Source: Ruminococcus sp.
Lineage (GTDB): Bacteria; Bacillota; Clostridia; Oscillospirales; Ruminococcaceae
Length of the DNA: 49,627 nucleotides
Assembly: GCA_017543335.1 (NCBI GenBank)
Contig: JAFYGE010000062.1
Span: forward strand, 1-49,627
Reading direction: 5' to 3'
The first letter of the stretch is position 1; each line of letters begins with the position of its first letter. The notes beneath the pieces were generated by a model that made no database searches, was not told the origin of the DNA, and saw only the letters and a program-made list of their open reading frames with translations. Positions 3,710 to 26,967 of this stretch are shown piece after piece. Made by a program: the position numbers and the translations under genes.

Positions 3710-3961
3710 ATGGATAGACAGAGTATCGACCCTAAAAAAGCAAACGGACTTATAAATGCTATCAGCAAAAAAATAGGAGTATCACCGGAAAAATTAAAAA
3801 GTGAGCTTGAAGCCGGTAAATTTGACAGTACTTTATCAGCTATGGATAAGAAAGATGCGGCAAAGTTCCAGAGAGCATTAAATGACCCTAAGTTAGTCGA
3901 GCGACTGATGAGTACTCCGCAAGCTCAGGCATTATATAATAAATTATCCGGGAAAAAGTAA
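3710..3961 (+). CDS. Small helical hypothetical protein
   Basis: 83-residue basic protein, not recognised by function. It has no signal peptide or membrane segment. The sequence is lysine-rich and predicted helical, with a segment resembling small regulatory or structural proteins (NAISKKIGVSPEKLKSELEAGK, then FQRALNDPKLVERLMS). AAGGAGG lies 6 bases before the ATG. It begins a run of four tightly spaced small genes that ends with a BofA-like protein, so a sporulation-related role is possible, but this is inference from position only. Confidence 0.75.
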   Translation: MDRQSIDPKKANGLINAISKKIGVSPEKLKSELEAGKFDSTLSAMDKKDAAKFQRALNDPKLVERLMSTPQAQALYNKLSGKK

Positions 3962-3975
3962 ATATCGGAGGAGAA

Positions 3976-16498: not shown

Positions 16499-17932
16499 TT
16501 ACTTCACAATATCAGAATCATCAAAAGGATCTCCGCACTCAGCACAGAACTTAGGAGGATTAAATGGATCCTCAGGTTCCCAACCGCACTTATCGCAGCG
16601 ATAGAGAGGAGCTCCTGCCGGCTTTGGTTTACCGCACTCAGCACAGAATTTACCCTTATTTATAGCACCGCATGAGCAAGCCCAACCTTCCGGAGCTGCA
16701 TCAGCAGGCTTTGGTTTGCCGCAGTTATTACAGAACTTACCTGTATTATCTGCTCCGCACTGACACTTCCAGCTGTTAGCAGGTGCTGGCTTAGGCTTAC
16801 CGCAGTTATTGCAGAATTTACCAGTGTTAGCAGTGCCGCACTCACAGTTCCAGCTTCCAGCTGTTGCAGCTGAAGCAGGATTTCCGGCAGCATTCGGAGA
16901 TGTTGTAGCACCAACAGCTCCCTGCTGAGCTCCCATATTAAAGAGACCCTGAGCATTCATTCCGCCCATCTGATTTGCCATACCCATTCCGAATAATCCC
17001 ATAGCAGCACCATTCGGATTGTTTGCAGCGTTCTGCATAGCCTGTGCCTGAGCTTCAACAAGAGTAGCAGCGGCATTAGTTGGATTTGTATTCCAAGCTC
17101 TGTCTTCAAATTCCTGAATACGCTTAGTATCTTCAGCGGAGATAGTAGCTGAATTGATAGCGACCTTTTCAAGCTGAAGACCTCTTCTGTCTTTCCAGTC
17201 AGAAGTAAGCTCAGTCTCTATAGCGTCCTTAACTTCTCTCTGTCTTCCGGGGAGTTCGTCGTATCTTATACCGCTTGCAGAGATCTTAGCGAAAGCAGGC
17301 TGGAGTGAATCAAGGAATTCACTCTTGAGCTGTCCGTCAAGCTCAGAACGAGAGTAGCTGGAAGATACGTTTCCGCAGACATTTGCGTAGAAAAGTACAG
17401 GGTCTGCAATCTTATATGAATAGATACCATTGCAGCGAACGCCTACAGTAAAGCTTCTGTTAAGGTCCTGATATGTAACTCTGAACGGGACAGGATTCTG
17501 TGTACCGAACTTGTTATCGAGGAGTTCCTTCATGTTGAAGTAATAGATCCTCTGATCCTTAGCAGCGTCGCCGCCGTGCTTGATACGATCCCACATTTCC
17601 TTAAATGTGTTCTTTAATCCTGCACCGAAAGTGCTGGAGAAAAGGCTTGGTGAAGTACCGGTGTCATATTTATATATACCTGGCTCAGTAGCGATCTCAG
17701 TAACAACGCCCTGATCGACCATGATCATTGCCTGTCCCTCGTGAACCACGATACTGCTTCCGTCAGAAATAACATTTTCGTTACCCTTTTTATTTGATGA
17801 ATGTTTTCCGAGTTGTTTTTTTCCTCTTACTACGATAACATCAGCCGGAATAGAATCACAAACAAAGAATTCCTCCCATGTATCTGCAAGTGTAGTAGCT
17901 GCTCCGACAAGTGCTGCTCTTATAAGACCCAT
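16499..17932 (-). CDS. SPFH-domain protein with four C-terminal zinc ribbons (YdjI-like)
   Basis: 477 residues. The N-terminal region (VVRGKKQLGKHSSNKKGNEN, then EGQAMIMVDQGVV and FRVTYQDLNRSFTVGVRCNG) matches the YdjI/virion-core-like SPFH group that assembles on membranes and can recruit PspA-like proteins. A Gln/Ala/Met-rich linker (about 285-355) precedes four CxC...CxxC ribbons in tandem from residue 360 (WNCECGTANTGKFCNNC, WKCQCGADNTGKFCNNC, WACSCGAINKGKFCAEC and a variant fourth ending CAECGDPF). Start codon ATG with AAAGGAG 9 bases upstream. Signature repeats at the C-terminus suggest metal-dependent or partner binding. First gene of a three-gene operon. Confidence 0.88.
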   Translation of the reverse strand: MGLIRAALVGAATTLADTWEEFFVCDSIPADVIVVRGKKQLGKHSSNKKGNENVISDGSSIVVHEGQAMIMVDQGVVTEIATEPGIYKYDTGTSPSLFSSTFGAGLKNTFKEMWDRIKHGGDAAKDQRIYYFNMKELLDNKFGTQNPVPFRVTYQDLNRSFTVGVRCNGIYSYKIADPVLFYANVCGNVSSSYSRSELDGQLKSEFLDSLQPAFAKISASGIRYDELPGRQREVKDAIETELTSDWKDRRGLQLEKVAINSATISAEDTKRIQEFEDRAWNTNPTNAAATLVEAQAQAMQNAANNPNGAAMGLFGMGMANQMGGMNAQGLFNMGAQQGAVGATTSPNAAGNPASAATAGSWNCECGTANTGKFCNNCGKPKPAPANSWKCQCGADNTGKFCNNCGKPKPADAAPEGWACSCGAINKGKFCAECGKPKPAGAPLYRCDKCGWEPEDPFNPPKFCAECGDPFDDSDIVK

Positions 17933-21417: not shown

Positions 21418-22890
21418 TTATGCCGCAGTTACGGCAGCATATCTCTCCGAGGAGAGTATTTTGTTCATAACAGTCTCAGGCGAGCATTCTCCGCCTATGA
21501 CCATATCAAATATCGCAGGTGAGTATCCGGAAACAAGTGCTGCACCAGTCTCTGAACGTGTAACGGGCACTGCATCACAGCGTGCGTTCACATTCCAGAA
21601 AATGATCTCAGGCATTATGTATCCGTAATTGTGGTAAAGCTTTTTCATTGCCTTGAACAGTACTTCGTTGTTTCCGCCGATTATACAGCTGTCAAACTGC
21701 ATATCAGAGATTATGTAGAGCTTTGCCGGCATATCACTTGCTGCAACGTTGTTTTTTACTGCGGTCTTTAATATGAGCTTGAAAACTGCCTCTAAATTGG
21801 TATTTGCTATTTCGTTGAATGAACGGCAGTATGTCACCTTTTCGACGATATTGCTGCCCTTTATCTCAACAAGACGAGGAGTTTCAGAGAATGTGATGAA
21901 GTGATTTGCAAATGCACCTTTGTTGTGTTCAGCAAAGTATATACCAAGTGATAATGCTGCATCTATAGGACGTATAGTTCCGCAGCCGCAGGTCATTGAA
22001 CCCGAACCGTCGATAACTGCAATTGCATTTTCACGCTTTGCAGCAGTCAGGTCAGGCAGAGACTTCCATGCAGCGTCAAGGGACATATTCTCCTCACGAG
22101 TTACGATACCAGCCATAGCTGCACGTACTATCTCGTATGGATACAATCTGTCAGCATTCATTTTAGTCTCACCGCTGTGAACTCTGTTCAGGTAGTCTAT
22201 ATAACGCTCGTTATCGTTGCGGATGAAAGCGTTGCGGTACTTGAACATTGCACATGAAGGCTGCACCTCATATCTGAAAGTGTAGTCACGCTCACGAAGG
22301 CGGTTCTCGATTATGTCGGTGTATCTGCGGAGTGCTGACAGAGTTTTTCTGTATTCACGCTCGCTCATACCGATCAAAGCTGCGATGCGTCTGCCCATAT
22401 TTCTTGTCTCTTTTGAAGAAGCATTGACTGACGGCAGCCACTTTGCAAGCAATGAAGCAGGCTCTTTTGCATACATAGCTGCAATATCCGTGTGGAGCTG
22501 TGCGGTTATAACTCTAATTGCCTCGTCTTCTATTGGCGTTCCGAGCAATACGCACAAGTCGTCGAATCGTCCGTACTCAGCGAAAAGGGAAACATTTCTC
22601 TTTACAGCCTCAGGAGCTATCTTAACGAGTGCAGATATTGCTATGCGGAAGAAGCGTCTTTCACCAAGACCGCCTCTTGCGTCACGGGCAAAGAAAACTA
22701 TCTTCATAGTCTTGTCGGGATCCTCAGCGTATGCACGGGTAACAGTATCTGCTATCTCTTCGGCTGTGGAGTTTCTCATCGCACCAGCCTTGAAGAACAT
22801 ATCCAGACAGAATGACTCTGCTGAACGGTAAGCCACACCGCCGTTTTCAGTATATGTTAAGTTGGATTCTTTCTTTAAAAAGTTAAGCAT
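21418..22890 (-). CDS. DUF2828 / TROVE-like VWA protein (Ro60-like)
   Basis: 490 residues. The helical N-terminal region (LTYTENGGVAYRSAESF, then KIVFFARDARGGLGERRFFR and AEYGRFDDL) matches the DUF2828 family, whose HEAT-like fold is related to the TROVE module of Ro60/Rsr. A C-terminal von Willebrand A domain follows, with a complete MIDAS start (AVIDGSGSMTCG, D294-S296-S298). Ro60-type proteins bind misfolded RNA and Y RNAs. That is the reason for linking it to the adjacent hairpin-rich RNA region and RtcB ligase upstream on the same strand. GAGAGG lies 9 bases from the ATG. RNA binding by this family is inference from the fold and the neighbours. Confidence 0.85.
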   Translation of the reverse strand: MLNFLKKESNLTYTENGGVAYRSAESFCLDMFFKAGAMRNSTAEEIADTVTRAYAEDPDKTMKIVFFARDARGGLGERRFFRIAISALVKIAPEAVKRNVSLFAEYGRFDDLCVLLGTPIEDEAIRVITAQLHTDIAAMYAKEPASLLAKWLPSVNASSKETRNMGRRIAALIGMSEREYRKTLSALRRYTDIIENRLRERDYTFRYEVQPSCAMFKYRNAFIRNDNERYIDYLNRVHSGETKMNADRLYPYEIVRAAMAGIVTREENMSLDAAWKSLPDLTAAKRENAIAVIDGSGSMTCGCGTIRPIDAALSLGIYFAEHNKGAFANHFITFSETPRLVEIKGSNIVEKVTYCRSFNEIANTNLEAVFKLILKTAVKNNVAASDMPAKLYIISDMQFDSCIIGGNNEVLFKAMKKLYHNYGYIMPEIIFWNVNARCDAVPVTRSETGAALVSGYSPAIFDMVIGGECSPETVMNKILSSERYAAVTAA

Positions 22891-22908
22891 AATGATTACC
22901 TCTCTTTC

Positions 22909-22989
22909 AAGTCAGCGTTTTTCCATACGTTTCCGCAGGGCAGGATTTGAACCTGCAAAATGCCAATTTCTTTATGCTGTTGCTGACTT
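22909..22989 (-). ncRNA. tRNA-mimic module with canonical T-arm
   Basis: On the minus strand GCAGG-TTCAAAT-CCTGC (22940-22956) is a perfect 5-bp T stem with the invariant 7-base T loop (TTC, A58, C61 positions all correct). It lies within a module closed by an 8-bp stem. A GG-containing loop segment (ATTGGCA) just upstream could serve as the D-loop partner. No complementary acceptor strand or anticodon arm exists, so it is not a tRNA gene. A T-arm-bearing module at the end of a Y-like RNA is the hallmark of YrlA-type RNAs. It is adjacent to the ribosome site of the TROVE-like gene. Confidence 0.7.
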
Positions 22990-23310
22990 ATGTTTCTGTA
23001 AGCTCTTCACTTCCTCGGCTCGTTTTTTCACTCAGCCCTTGTCGTTGCCAATGGTTTCTGAGTCCCCAGAACAAATGCTGTGAGAGCCGAAATTACAAGA
23101 CGCATATTTTCATGTCCATATGAAATTATCAGCTGCTGGATGCGTCTTAGTGTTTTCAGCGTAACGCCGTACAAGGCACTTATTTATCTTGACAGGATAA
23201 CGTTGATTGCTGTTTGTGCCTTAAATTATACCCCAGCGTTACGCCGGCTCGTCACTGTATGGTTTGAATGATCAGTTCAAATAAGATCCACTTTTTTGCT
23301 GTAAGTGACG
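22909..23310 (-). ncRNA. Candidate Y-like (Yrl) RNA region between rtcB and the TROVE-like gene
   Basis: About 400 bp with no supported ORF. The minus strand folds into five consecutive hairpins closed by perfect or near-perfect stems: CGTCACT/AGTGACG (23250-23310), a 13-bp stem with two G-U pairs enclosing AAGGCAC/GTGCCTT (23157-23246), AAGACGCAT/ATGCGTCTT enclosing TTTCAT/ATGAAA (23097-23148), CGGCTC/GAGCCG enclosing ACTCAG/CTGAGT (23014-23091), and AAGTCAGC/GCTGACTT enclosing a T-arm (22909-22989). Position between an RNA ligase and a Ro-like protein is that of bacterial Y RNAs. A TATAAT box at 23225-23230 without a good -35 could start a shorter transcript; otherwise the RNA would be processed from the operon mRNA. 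The exact ends are unknown. Confidence 0.7.
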
Positions 23311-23315
23311 AAATA

Positions 23316-24551
23316 TCAACCTTTTATAACTCCGACTGTAAACAGCTGCTTTACAGGCTCGGTAAGGTCCTGCTGATTTGCCATGACATCGCTGATGTCC
23401 TTATATGCGAATCTGGATTCCTCTGCAACGTCAGATTTATTGTTCTTCGCAAGAACTACGTTCTGCTGCTTCAGGTCTACCATTACGGACTCGACTGAAA
23501 ATTTGTCCATTGCTGCTGTACGTGAGTAAGCTCTGCCTGCACCGTGTGAAGAGGACATAAAGCTGTCGGCATTGCCTTTTCCACGGACTATGTAGCTATA
23601 TGAGCCCATAGCTCCGGGGATTATTCCCATGTCTCCTTCACGGGCACGTATAGCACCCTTACGGTGAACCCATACGTTCTTTCCAAAGTGATTTTCAAGA
23701 GCGGCGTAGTTGTGGTGACAGTTTATCTCACCTGAAAATTCAGGCACTATACCGGTATGCTTTGAAACGTGTTTTGTGAATATCTCCTTGACTTTACGCA
23801 GCATTATCGCACGATTCTCATAGGCGAAATCCATACATAACTGCATCCATGCGAGGTATTTTTTTCCCTCTTCGGTGTCGACCGGCAGGAACGGCAGATT
23901 CCACTCGCCAGGTACTTGTGAGAACCACTTATCGTTAAGTTCGTGAGCAATTTTGTTGAAGTACTGACCGACTATATTTCCAAAGTGACGGCTGCCTGAA
24001 TGGAGCATTATACCGCACATTCCGTTGTCGTCATGCTGGAGTTCAATGAAGTGATTCCCGCCGCCGAGAGTTCCTGCCTGATAGTAGCCTTCCTCAATCT
24101 GAGGGATAAGCTCCATATCGGATTCATAGCGGCTCATTTCAGCCTTTGCACGGTCAAGCACATCCGACTGCTGAGCTGTTTTATAATGAGCAAAACCTGT
24201 CGGGATATTTCTAAGGATATCTCCGCATATAGTCTGCACAAGATTACCGCTTCCTGTTATTGTGTCACGGAGCAGCGATACAGGTATATCTGTCTGCACG
24301 TAAGCCATTCCGCAGCCAATATCAACTCCGACTGCATTTGGTATCACAATGTCCTCGCAGGCGATGACTCCTCCTATCGGCATACCCTTTCCGGCATGAG
24401 TGTCAGGCATAAGTGCTATCCACTTATGTGCGAATGGGAGCTTTGCAAGGTGCTCCGCCTGTTCGATACATTTTTCACCGACAGCCTCAATATCTGTCTG
24501 CCATATCTTTATCGGGAGCATATTTTCATTCTTTTTGTAATGTACGAACAT
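23316..24551 (-). CDS. rtcB: RNA 3'-phosphate/2',3'-cyclic phosphate-5'-OH ligase RtcB
   Basis: Seals RNA ends bearing 2',3'-cyclic or 3'-phosphate to 5'-OH ends, using GTP and Mn2+. All core motifs are present: MPDTHAGKGMPIGG, the metal-binding VGVDIGCGM (D77, C80), LGGGNHFIE, LHSGSRHFG, HRKGAIRAREGDMGIIPGAMG and SSSHGAGRAYSR, whose His carries GMP in known enzymes. The 411-residue length equals that of the E. coli protein. I chose the ATG; an in-frame GTG three codons upstream is possible. Expression probably starts at the -10-like TATACT near 24600, which lacks a clear -35, suggesting activator control, with the divergent WYL genes as candidates. RtcA (cyclase) is not in the window. Confidence 0.96.
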   Translation of the reverse strand: MFVHYKKNENMLPIKIWQTDIEAVGEKCIEQAEHLAKLPFAHKWIALMPDTHAGKGMPIGGVIACEDIVIPNAVGVDIGCGMAYVQTDIPVSLLRDTITGSGNLVQTICGDILRNIPTGFAHYKTAQQSDVLDRAKAEMSRYESDMELIPQIEEGYYQAGTLGGGNHFIELQHDDNGMCGIMLHSGSRHFGNIVGQYFNKIAHELNDKWFSQVPGEWNLPFLPVDTEEGKKYLAWMQLCMDFAYENRAIMLRKVKEIFTKHVSKHTGIVPEFSGEINCHHNYAALENHFGKNVWVHRKGAIRAREGDMGIIPGAMGSYSYIVRGKGNADSFMSSSHGAGRAYSRTAAMDKFSVESVMVDLKQQNVVLAKNNKSDVAEESRFAYKDISDVMANQQDLTEPVKQLFTVGVIKG

Positions 24552-24657
24552 TTTCTTCACTTCTTTCGTTTTTATTTCTTTCCTTTAGCTTGATCTTAGT
24601 ATATCACAGAAATTGGAAATAATCATATAAAATTTTCTGCACACACTCGTAACCGTA

Positions 24658-24713: not shown

Positions 24714-25988
24714 ATGGCAGGTTTTTCCGAACTTATAAAAAATTTCGATAAGACCCGTGATTATGTCCGTGATTTTTTCATATACGGATGCAAGGTCAGA
24801 AGTGATTTTGACCGCAAGAGTATCCGCACATACGGCGATGAAAAAAGACGTGTCGAAAGCTGGATGGGAGACTATATGCGTTATGACGATTCTGTTCACG
24901 GAAGAAGTGTCTCGATTTCAGTGGACAGCGGTCATATTCCGGAAAATCCGCTGTATAATGCCTATTACTCAAAGAGCTTCACTGATAATGACATCCGTTT
25001 GCACTTCCTTATAACAGATATATTGAACGACGGACTTAGTCATACTCTTAAAGAGATAACTGATATTCTGAATACAGATTATGCCCAGCTTTTTGATGAG
25101 CAGACTGTCCGCAACAAGCTGAAAGAGTACGTTGAAGAGGGGATAGTTATTTCAGAAAAAAACGGTAAGACTCTTTATTATAAGCTCTCAGAAGACATGG
25201 CTGAGGACTATATAAGCAGTTATTCCGGACTTGATGATGCATTGATGTTCTTTTCTGAAACTCAGCATTTTGGTATTATAGGCAACAGCATACTCAAAAT
25301 GCTCGGACTGAAAAATAGTCTTTTTTTCATCAAGCACAATTACATGATACATACTCTTGAAGATATACTTATACCTGAGATAATTTCTGCTATAAATGAA
25401 AAACGTCATATTTCCTTCCGTACATTCTCTGCTAAAAGGAACAAAGACGGAGATACATCAGGTACTGAAAATCAAGTAGTACCGATGAAAATCCTTGTTT
25501 CCGTACAGACCGGGAGACGCTATCTTGCGGCTTATATCCCGGGACTAAGAAGATTTTCTGCATTCAGACTGGATTATATGAAGTCGGTCAAAAAAGGTGA
25601 TATTTGTGACGTATATGATGATATAAAAGTCAAATTTGACCGTAATATGGTCCATTGTTTCGGAGTTTCATTTGGTATGAGACGTGAAACGGGTACAGTA
25701 ACTCCAATGAAGATAACATTTTTCGCTGACGAGGAAAAAGAACCTTATATTATTGATAGACTTGAACGTGAGAAACGCTGCTGTAGGCTTGAAAGAACCG
25801 GTGAACACCTTTATACACTGACAGCTGATGTTTTTGACCCTAATGAGCTGATGCACTGGGCTAAAACTTTTATTGGCAGGATAGTCAGTATTGAGGGAGG
25901 CTCGGATACAGTGAGGAAGCGTTTCTATGACGATATAGCAAGAATGAACAGAATTTACGGCGGTGATGAAGATGAACATATTCAGTGA
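24714..25988 (+). CDS. WYL-domain transcriptional regulator
   Basis: 424 residues. The N-terminal 60-180 region looks like a winged helix (SHTLKEITDILNTDYAQL, then RNKLKEYVEEGIVISEKNGK). The central segment (NEKRHISFRTFSAKRN, MKILVSVQTGRRYLAAYIPG, RRFSAFRLDYMKSV) is a WYL-type ligand-sensing domain with Y and L as found in family members. A C-terminal extension (ELMHWAKTFIGRIVSIEGGSDTVRKRFYDDI) is typical of WYL regulators. WYL domains bind nucleic acids or nucleotides, and in published surveys WYL regulators often accompany RNA-repair genes. It is divergent from rtcB. GAAAGGAAGTG precedes the ATG. The next gene overlaps its end by 17 bp. Confidence 0.85.
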   Translation: MAGFSELIKNFDKTRDYVRDFFIYGCKVRSDFDRKSIRTYGDEKRRVESWMGDYMRYDDSVHGRSVSISVDSGHIPENPLYNAYYSKSFTDNDIRLHFLITDILNDGLSHTLKEITDILNTDYAQLFDEQTVRNKLKEYVEEGIVISEKNGKTLYYKLSEDMAEDYISSYSGLDDALMFFSETQHFGIIGNSILKMLGLKNSLFFIKHNYMIHTLEDILIPEIISAINEKRHISFRTFSAKRNKDGDTSGTENQVVPMKILVSVQTGRRYLAAYIPGLRRFSAFRLDYMKSVKKGDICDVYDDIKVKFDRNMVHCFGVSFGMRRETGTVTPMKITFFADEEKEPYIIDRLEREKRCCRLERTGEHLYTLTADVFDPNELMHWAKTFIGRIVSIEGGSDTVRKRFYDDIARMNRIYGGDEDEHIQ

Positions 25989-26967
25989 AATATACGGAGC
26001 TTATTTCCGGACAGCAGCTAAACTGCTGAAAAATGAAATTACCGACGAAAAAACAGTTCGTGAAACCGTTCAGCAAGAGGGATTTCGTGATTCTGTACTT
26101 TTTCTGCCTCAGAAGCTTATTCCCGGCGATGATGACTGGGGACTTTTCAGCCGAACTCCGGACGGTAAACTGAAACGCATAACCAAAGTATCACCGGTAA
26201 ATGTTCTGACAAAATTACAGAAAATGTGGCTTAAAGCAAAGCTCTCAGACCCAAGAATAAGACTTTTTATGGACGAGAAAACGCTCTCAGAGCTTAATGA
26301 CAGATTAGCTGACGTTTCTCCGCTTTATAAAAACGAGCATTTCAGATATACTGACCGTTTTTCTGACAGCGATGATTTTTACAATGAGAACTATATAAAG
26401 AATTTTCGTATTGCTCTTGATGCGGTAAAAAACAGAAAAATAGTATACATCGAGTTCTTTTCCGGACATGGCAATAGAGTAAGCGGCAAGTTCGTTATGC
26501 TGAAAATGGAATATTCACCGAAGAACGATAAATTCCGTGCATACTGTTATTTGCTGAGGCACGACAAGATAAAGAAAAGCGGTATCATTAATATCGGTCG
26601 GATTACCAATATCATCGATACAGGACGTGTTTTTCGCACTCCTGTATCTATGGACGACTATTTTTCAAGCCGCAAATGCAGTTCACCAGCAGTAATCATC
26701 GTAAAGCCAGAGCGTAACGGTGTTGAGCGTTTTATGCTTGAGTTTGCGTCATATGAAAAGCATACAGTCAGGGACCTTGAAACCGGTCAATATAGGGTTG
26801 AGTTATGGTACGATAATCAGGACGAGACAGAGCTGCTGATACGTCTGCTGAGTTTTGGTCCGGTGATTGAGATACTTGGTCCTCAGAGTTTGAGGGAGCA
26901 GGCAAAATTCCGCATAAAAAGGCAGGCTGAACTTCTTGCAAAATACGGAGGTGAAAAAGATGTCTGA
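25972..26967 (+). CDS. Second WYL-domain protein, without obvious HTH
   Basis: 331 residues. The middle region (NRKIVYIEFFSGHGNRVSG, MLKMEYSPKNDKFRAYCYLL, GIINIGRITNIIDTG) fits the WYL core, and the C-terminus (LLIRLLSFGPVIEILGPQSLREQAKFRIKRQAELLAKYG) is the usual WCX-like extension. The N-terminal 90 residues (IFSEIYGAYFRTAAKLLKN) do not look like a helix-turn-helix, so this may be a co-sensor or subunit of the first WYL protein. The ATG at MNIFSEIYG is preferred; a GTG 9 bases earlier is alternative. It overlaps both neighbours, so the three genes are translationally coupled. Confidence 0.82.
   Translation: MNIFSEIYGAYFRTAAKLLKNEITDEKTVRETVQQEGFRDSVLFLPQKLIPGDDDWGLFSRTPDGKLKRITKVSPVNVLTKLQKMWLKAKLSDPRIRLFMDEKTLSELNDRLADVSPLYKNEHFRYTDRFSDSDDFYNENYIKNFRIALDAVKNRKIVYIEFFSGHGNRVSGKFVMLKMEYSPKNDKFRAYCYLLRHDKIKKSGIINIGRITNIIDTGRVFRTPVSMDDYFSSRKCSSPAVIIVKPERNGVERFMLEFASYEKHTVRDLETGQYRVELWYDNQDETELLIRLLSFGPVIEILGPQSLREQAKFRIKRQAELLAKYGGEKDV

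Follow-up and report, generated by a model that had tools for sequence, protein, structure and literature searches.

In a 49,627-nucleotide (nt) stretch of Ruminococcus sp. DNA (contig JAFYGE010000062.1, hereafter the window), the 425-nt gap that leads on the minus strand from rtcB to a gene of the DUF2828 family probably encodes five separate small noncoding RNA units, each framed by the same terminal handle, which would act as interchangeable Y-like partners of the DUF2828 protein in an RtcB RNA-repair operon. The handle consists of a terminal stem of 7 base pairs (bp), two nucleotides, the motif NCAGCA (mostly ACAGCA), a variable body, the closing strand of the stem and then a G. We observed the handle itself, the paired structures, their conservation and strand, their tie to DUF2828 in bacteria and phages, and tRNA-like bodies in relatives.

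All the stems of the five consecutive hairpins that an earlier note had described in this gap are present on the minus strand, the strand of rtcB (Table 1). The note had missed the handle rule common to all five modules. It had proposed a single Y-like RNA of 400 nt; what we found instead is an array of five handle-framed units, with a T-arm in module 5 only. The 13-bp stem with inner AAGGCAC/GTGCCTT that it had reported does exist, as a separate helix around module 2. An exact handle was defined as seven Watson-Crick pairs, 2 nt, NCAGCA and a closing strand followed by G, with a span of at most 150 nt. Both strands of the window together contain five exact matches, one per hairpin, all in the gap and none on the plus strand, which bears out the claim that the density of hairpins exceeds chance.

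Table 1. Features of the rtcB-DUF2828 region in the window
Feature	Position	Strand	Description
WYL-like and WCX-domain genes	24714-26967	+	Putative regulators (WYL-like, 24714-25988; WCX-domain, 25963-26967); overlapping pair, divergent from rtcB
rtcB	23316-24560	-	RtcB RNA ligase; Pfam RtcB 3.3e-108; stop codon 4 nt ahead of module 1
Module array	22908-23311	-	Filled by modules 1 to 5
Module 1	23248-23311	-	Stem TCGTCAC/GTGACGA + G; handle TT-ACAGCA; exact match; model R1 28.4 bits, E 3.5e-4
Extra helix enclosing module 2	23159-23244	-	GCGTAACGC (23159-23167) / GCGTTACGC (23236-23244)
Module 2	23172-23222	-	Stem AAGGCAC/GTGCCTT + G; handle AA-ACAGCA; short body, small hairpin; exact match
Module 3	23096-23148	-	Stem AAGACGC/GCGTCTT + G; variant handle AT-CCAGCA; exact match
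Module 4	23014-23090	-	Stem TCGGCTC/GAGCCGA + G; handle TC-ACAGCA; inner hairpin ACTCAG/CTGAGT; exact match
Module 5	22908-22989	-	Stem AAGTCAG/CTGACTT + G; handle CA-ACAGCA; body ATTGG + T-arm + GAAA-loop hairpin; exact match
tRNA-like T-arm in module 5	22940-22956	-	GCAGG-TTCAAAT-CCTGC; T-stem covaries
GAAA-loop hairpin in module 5	22923-22939	-	CCTGCGGAAACGTATGG, 3' of T-arm; lies where permuted tRNA bodies have their capped acceptor stem, a role suggested by that position
Shine-Dalgarno-like stretch	22891-22907	-	AAAGAGAGG; between module 5 and DUF2828 start; identified by eye
DUF2828/DUF7788 gene	21418-22890	-	Probable Ro60-like protein, 490 aa, vWA-like with DGSGSM; Pfam; phrog_850 'RNA-binding protein'; TROVE profile match

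The rule was examined in 95 further bacterial DUF2828 loci (of 98, one was the copy of the window itself and two matched only in part; designated by L numbers), which include duplicates, the proteins of L002 and L047 and those of L003 and L067 being identical. Forty of the 95 have a close RtcB gene directly upstream, as in the window, and there the gap of 418 to 1320 nt is a row of modules. The window and these relatives together provide 41 gaps with 164 strict modules, compared with 0 to 4 in ten dinucleotide shuffles. In the kilobase upstream of DUF2828, the 7-mer preceding ACAGCA (offset 0 to 2) is exactly complemented within 110 nt at 303 of 427 sites; swapping the partners gave a mean of 23.5 and a maximum of 37 in 200 trials, and only 29 of 633 ACAGCA sites elsewhere in the loci or on the opposite strand are complemented.

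The geometry of the handle is nearly invariant. From the outermost Watson-Crick pair to ACAGCA, which is 3' of it, the distance is exactly 9 nt in 292 of the 309 modules found upstream of DUF2828, and in 291 of them a G directly follows the closing strand, where it forms no Watson-Crick pair. The base opposite this G is a T in 131 modules, and a wobble pair is therefore possible in those. Module length varies from 42 to 137 nt (median 64), and the stems are diverse, with 112 different 7-mers (shifted registers counted apart) around A-A/C-G-G/A-C/U-N-C. The arrays turn over fast: in the closest named relative by DUF2828 protein, another Ruminococcus sp. (L073, 95% identical), the gap is 66 nt longer than that of the window and has one extra module, with an ACTGCA handle.

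Compensatory changes in homologues, a check that the earlier note had set, are present in the stems of two module classes, both gathered without selecting for pairing. The module 5 class comprises 27 sequences, hand-picked around ACAGCA and the T-arm, with the near-copies L026, L028, L029, L039 and L071 omitted. In this set 98.9% of the cells are paired, 21 cells show double changes, and both the outer stem and the T-arm are compensated. None of 500 shuffles equaled it in paired cells, double-change cells or covariation score; on weaker measures, pairs changed on both sides were reached by 8 of the 500 and pair types by 285. The module 4 class was gathered by overall similarity (the window and 17 of the 20 loci found by nhmmer; 18 sequences). 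It is 97.4% paired and has six pairs changed on both sides, in the outer stem and inner hairpin, and none of 500 shuffles equaled it on any measure. The pairing score of a further alignment, A6, and of the handle covariance model R1 is circular because their 36 modules were chosen for their stems; A6, which this choice makes fully paired, illustrates variety only.

The handle is closely tied to DUF2828. Exact handles, one to six per locus, lie upstream of the gene in 94 of 95 loci from bacteria. No more than 1.7 kb upstream there are 298 of them, compared with two elsewhere on the same strand and two on the opposite strand. In the source genome of the window, the sole matches of R1 at E up to 1 are modules 1 to 3. 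Module 2 has the best score (46.9 bits, E 2.7e-8) but is itself a training row, and nhmmer finds 13 relatives of it; module 3 (31.6 bits, E 6.8e-5) is outside the training set. Across 197 genomes of the family, R1 has matches in 12, four of which had supplied training rows; all 12 are among the 18 genomes with DUF2828, and none is among the 179 without it. Among the matches listed, 18 of 20 places are at most 1.6 kb from DUF2828. The other two are solitary modules in a pair of genomes from the same genus, where DUF2828 is on a different contig (L182, 1501-1555, plus strand; L172, 1501-1557, minus strand). Judged by eye, both adjoin a glutamate-dehydrogenase-like gene, and in L182 a promoter-like TTGATA-17-TATTAT precedes the module; such a solitary module is apparently a stand-alone RNA gene. 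The handle-framed elements are real, conserved and strand-specific, and they evolve like small structured RNAs.

The association extends to viruses. The DUF2828 family occurs in 672 of 50,697 phage records, often annotated as hypothetical; the gene names among the matches listed are RNA-binding protein, vWFA protein, Ro-like RNA binding protein and hypothetical protein. Under a relaxed scan, whose output includes chance pairings, seven of eight phage regions have fitting modules beside the gene, and six of the eight have handles by the exact rule (L155-L158, L161 and L162). Directly downstream of DUF2828, four modules sit among tRNA genes in Escherichia phage adrianh (Felixounavirus adrianh, an E. 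coli K-12 phage; L158). Of 37 IMG/VR loci, several of them near-copies, 26 have exact handles in the examined stretch; 48 of these handles share the strand of DUF2828 and one is on the opposite strand. A model of the module 5 class, R2, has one match at E 0.0005 and one at E 0.008 in the phage loci, the others being weaker.

The tie also holds when the search starts from the RNA pattern alone. Two exact handle patterns retrieved 77 and 88 stretches of viral contigs, and a scrambled motif of the first pattern retrieved none. Of 151 loci found in this way, 82 hold DUF2828, and 240 of 241 handles share its strand at a median distance of 247 nt. The absence of DUF2828 from the remaining 69 is mostly uninformative because the viral stretches differ in length; where at least 4.5 kb is available on both sides, 9 of 11 loci have the gene.

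This strict orientation (240 of 241 in viruses; 298 versus 2 opposite in bacteria), the tRNA T-arms and the compensatory changes all argue against a DNA element, such as integron attC-like sites or repetitive extragenic palindrome (REP)-like repeats. Module number does vary among close relatives as repeats do, with one more in L073, and a palindromic helix encloses module 2; nevertheless, on these three lines of evidence, a DNA element is almost certainly not what we are dealing with. We also consider it very improbable that the array is a cis-acting structured spacer or a 3' untranslated region that stabilizes the rtcB mRNA or tunes translation of DUF2828. Its placement would suit such a role, since it begins 4 nt past the rtcB stop codon and ends at the Shine-Dalgarno-like stretch of DUF2828, and no promoter-like site was found in the gap. 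Yet modules are located downstream of DUF2828 in the viral loci L123, L126, L137 and L143, among tRNA genes in L158, and alone on other contigs in L172 and L182, and the handle is fixed while the stem sequences vary.

The case for a Y-like RNA begins with the protein. Against six TROVE proteins, hhalign gave the DUF2828 family a probability of 80.6 and a pairwise E of 1.3e-5 over residues 56 to 318, including the DGSGSM metal site. The TROVE profile also scores in three viral loci with DUF2828, at the level of the locus rather than of an established common gene. TROVE is absent among the Pfam families listed for 26 DUF2828 members (E up to 10, 25 families listed), PADLOC and NCBIfam have no family covering DUF2828, and a profile search of PDB sequences returned no match to a solved structure. 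Others have noticed a similar likeness in phages: the depositors of an Ochrobactrum phage (L159) noted a resemblance to Deinococcus Rsr, 2NVO_A, and the available part of a study of Listeria phage CKA15 likens CKA15_055 to the same Rsr structure (PMC12282133). The position of CKA15_055, and only its position, fits the DUF2828 gene. A mycobacteriophage survey, in the part accessible, describes a phage protein structurally similar to RO60 and names the Ro60 structure 2I91 (PMC12363180).

The modules share several features with known Y RNAs. Like the Y RNAs of YrlA type and of TROVE loci, they adjoin a Ro-type gene, sometimes together with RtcB, and have a closed terminal stem. A Ro-type gene is thus adjacent if DUF2828 is accepted as one, and the 5' and 3' ends lie in a basal stem in five of five modules, with covariation counted for modules 4 and 5. 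Chen and others, in 2014, reportedly took the presence of a tRNA-like domain in one or more RNAs of each locus as a criterion for Y RNAs, and are said to have found likely Y RNAs in the vicinity of Ro60 in over 250 species of bacteria and phages. By eye, the RNAs of TROVE loci (L100, L101, L103-L106) have a permuted tRNA body, as do module bodies in L048, L060, L155 and L158. The modules differ in forming tandem arrays, in having many bodies without a tRNA domain and in accompanying DUF2828 instead of a TROVE protein; module 5 of the window combines a T-arm with no clear D-arm. Their basal elements also differ: by eye, the RNAs of the six TROVE loci have the motif RGNUACUUCG, whereas the modules have the 7-bp stem, NN, ACAGCA and G. 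Neither the handle model nor the exact rule has a match in nine TROVE loci. Because the handle differs from the TROVE-type motif, membership of the canonical Y RNA class is not supported by the sequence. The earlier proposal of a Y-like RNA thus stands by analogy, through the adjacent Ro-like and RtcB genes, the closed stems and the tRNA-like bodies of relatives, but not by the handle. In two phages, handles (L155, 4154-4200; L156, 2150-2294) run on as ACAGCAAUUACU, which resembles the GUUACUUCG (UUACUUC) of TROVE-type Y RNAs; this continuation may be a Ro-binding element common to both groups.

The closest operon described is that of Salmonella, where, according to the accessible part of PMC7790460, the rsr, Y RNA (yrlBA) and rtcBA genes form one operon. 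There, as in the window, a Ro-type protein, Y RNAs or Y-like elements and RtcB stand together; the Salmonella operon has Rsr, RtcA and RtcR, the window DUF2828 and the WYL/WCX pair. In YrlA, as the available text of the review PMC8394870 has it, Rsr holds the basal stem; the tRNA-like domain is a binding site for PNPase and undergoes modification by DusA and TruB. For phages, PMC12282133, as far as it was accessible, reports abundant unannotated RNAs upstream of the Ro sixty-related protein in the P100-like Listeria phage CKA15, which may be Y RNAs, and states that Y RNAs have been identified in mycobacteriophages. The related P100plus locus (L156) has three handle modules directly upstream of DUF2828; the likeness to the CKA15 RNAs is one of locus, not of coordinates, the accessible part of that article giving no structure or motif. 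Because Y RNAs have been reported for phage species and mycobacteriophages, the phage members may already be known in part. The literature searched, with partial coverage, yielded neither the array form nor the exact handle, which may nonetheless be published, and no paper joining DUF2828 with RtcB, or ACAGCA with Y RNA and bacterial. Rfam, at the gathering score and at E up to 10, gave nothing credible in the window, which says little on novelty because the Y-like RNAs beside six TROVE genes escape Rfam too.

The bodies carried by the handle range widely. The modules resemble tRNAs in their 7-bp terminal stem, 2-nt linker and single 3' base, a geometry reminiscent of the acceptor stem (an observation, not a test of processing), and some bodies have a T-arm; those of the window have no anticodon arm or clear D-arm. 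The T-arm sequence GGTTYRANYCC occurs at least once in all 41 rtcB gaps, including that of the window, and 85 T-arms follow the handle motif in 56 of the 95 loci. Kinds of body were assigned by eye, in the light of general tRNA anatomy and YrlA topology. Some are plain hairpins or open loops, and others, like module 5, have a T-arm after UUGG and then a hairpin. A third kind is a circularly permuted tRNA, with a T-arm, an acceptor closed by a short loop and a D-arm (L045, L048, L056, L057, L060, L064 and L079); one module each of Mycobacterium phage Silverleaf (L155) and L158 has such a body. Finally, a nearly complete tRNA in normal order lies inside the handle stem in L087, L089 (about 3874-3975), L090 and L095, and Rfam (RF00005) scores L089 3893-3962 as a tRNA. 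ARAGORN calls tRNAs upstream of DUF2828 in L049, L081, L083, L087, L089 and L090; with bacterial settings it finds none in the window or its gap. Its permissive mitochondrial mode gave conflicting calls on both strands, which we disregarded. Module 5 is the one T-arm module of the window; the T-arm that relatives have in module 1 (GGGTTCAACTCCC) is lost or degenerate there.

These T-arms and whole tRNA-like bodies raise the question of tRNA decoys or mimics, which would soak up toxins that cleave tRNA or would block an anticodon nuclease, with only an incidental part for the Ro-like protein. The L158 modules sitting among tRNA genes, the L089 body scored by Rfam and the competitive-inhibitor role that PMC7790460, in its accessible part, proposes for the tRNA-like domain of YrlA would all fit. 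We regard a decoy function as quite unlikely, given that many modules, including four of the five in the window, have the same handle with no clear T-arm and that the handle tracks DUF2828.

Several observations weigh against the interpretation of the modules as Y-like partners of DUF2828. The modules of this genome are predicted to be RNAs from their DNA sequence, and the best reading of DUF2828, as a divergent Ro60-type protein, relies on distant homology. The TROVE-type motif RGNUACUUCG does not occur in the window modules. At E 0.001, R1 gives nothing in 6 of the 18 DUF2828 genomes, and it does not find modules 4 and 5 of the window. Eleven of the 37 IMG/VR loci have no exact handle in the examined stretch; L159, whose DUF2828 protein is named 'Ro sixty-related', has no convincing handle within 2.5 kb, and L160 has variants only. 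In L045, a relative of module 5 that does not form part of the covariation set, no closing strand is visible. In a comparison that the earlier note had asked for, the gap does fold somewhat better than its shuffles (-110.5 versus -97.7 kcal/mol, z -2.3, a value that 1 shuffle in 100 reached), but so does the opposite strand (z -2.7; 0 of 100), and folding energy is therefore not strand-specific. Minimum-free-energy folding of the whole gap hides the modules because neighboring stems cross-pair. Taken alone, folding energy is no proof of the structure and does not tell which strand bears it; for both we rely on the comparative evidence. Lastly, in 82 scored loci, T-arm bodies and RtcB occur together in 51, neither occurs in 21, and each occurs without the other in 5, so that 26 loci are without a T-arm. 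Fisher's test, uncorrected for ancestry, gives p 1.5e-10; an ancestry-aware test has, on supported branches, just six independent contrasts, of which about four agree, with a median p of 0.125. This co-occurrence is not significant once ancestry is considered, and we treat it as suggestive, a lead rather than a result.

RtcB itself is found in two arrangements: close upstream of DUF2828, as in the window and 40 relatives, or as a divergent RtcB, 26 to 36% identical to that of the window, within about 1.7 kb of DUF2828 and usually directly downstream. The latter is an independent arrangement of the same partnership. A second RtcB (about 28% identical) lies directly downstream of DUF2828 in L078, L081, L085, L087, L089, L090, L093, L094 and L097. 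We dropped the idea that T-loop decay accompanies loss of rtcB (in L035, TCC for TTC): L033 shows the identical change although its rtcB is present, and the ancestry-aware test likewise weakened the idea.

The recurrent adjacency of RtcB could mean that the array is its substrate: modules would be excised and RtcB would seal their juxtaposed ends into small circular RNAs, or the array would be a sensor repaired by RtcB. The terminal stems do put both ends side by side, and the uncorrected co-occurrence of T-arm bodies with RtcB points the same way. We find this unlikely, as 26 of the 82 scored loci have no RtcB in the examined stretch, yet only 1 of 95 lacks an exact handle. Moreover, phmmer with the RtcB of the window finds a relative in just 1 of the 151 handle-bearing viral stretches, although divergent RtcBs could escape it, and the columns flanking the stem contain no strong cleavage signal.

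To return to the Y-like partnership with DUF2828, it would involve transcription, processing, DUF2828 binding, a ring shape, downstream roles and a working link with RtcB, all of which we infer. The five RNA units would be made from, or processed out of, the rtcB-DUF2828 transcript. Their handle (7-bp stem, 2 nt, NCAGCA and 3' G) would be a common docking site for DUF2828 and the bodies exchangeable payloads. By analogy with bacterial Y RNAs, DUF2828 might hold the terminal stem and ACAGCA, while the body gates the ring or tethers other factors; a T-arm body such as that of module 5 could recruit tRNA-handling enzymes or mimic damaged tRNA. The operon as a whole would then respond to RNA damage: RtcB would rejoin cleaved RNA, and Ro-like particles would sort or protect RNA. 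A bolder proposal is possible, though we incline slightly against it: that the handle is a universal RNA plug, with DUF2828 proteins in Bacillota and hundreds of phage records accepting, through one fixed handle, many payloads (bare hairpins, T-arms, permuted tRNAs and even whole tRNAs) held in fast-changing tandem arrays. If true, this would make DUF2828 a programmable particle for RNA repair or quality control in phage-host conflict.

DUF2828 is a large protein family of phages and bacteria, and the handle provides a sharp, searchable signature for the RNAs that are its likely partners. If our interpretation is correct, the pairing of Ro60 with Y RNAs, familiar from autoimmunity in humans, would reach a divergent branch. 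The combination of one handle with many bodies makes the role of Y RNA bodies testable by body swaps.

Divergently upstream of rtcB, the window has a WYL-like gene, whose match of 19.8 bits is slightly below the Pfam cut-off of 21.8 bits. A WYL gene is likewise divergent upstream in 31 of the 40 relatives with close upstream RtcB, and in several loci without RtcB. Because a WYL-like gene lies divergently upstream of these loci, an induced response is suggested. The WYL/WCX pair is also present in L035, L041 and L043, whose examined stretch has no rtcB. In a scan of the gap for promoters and terminators, sites were no commoner than in shuffles. The helix around module 2 is common to the window and L073, and its first arm is also a weak terminator-like site; other loci have comparable short GC-rich palindromes between modules. 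Elsewhere in the window, the product of 16499-17932 (minus strand) has, by eye, a band-7/SPFH-like look with zinc ribbons. Phage Silverleaf (L155) has a gene annotated as band-7-like (517-1395) near its Ro-like gene, and its likeness to the window protein is possibly a coincidence.
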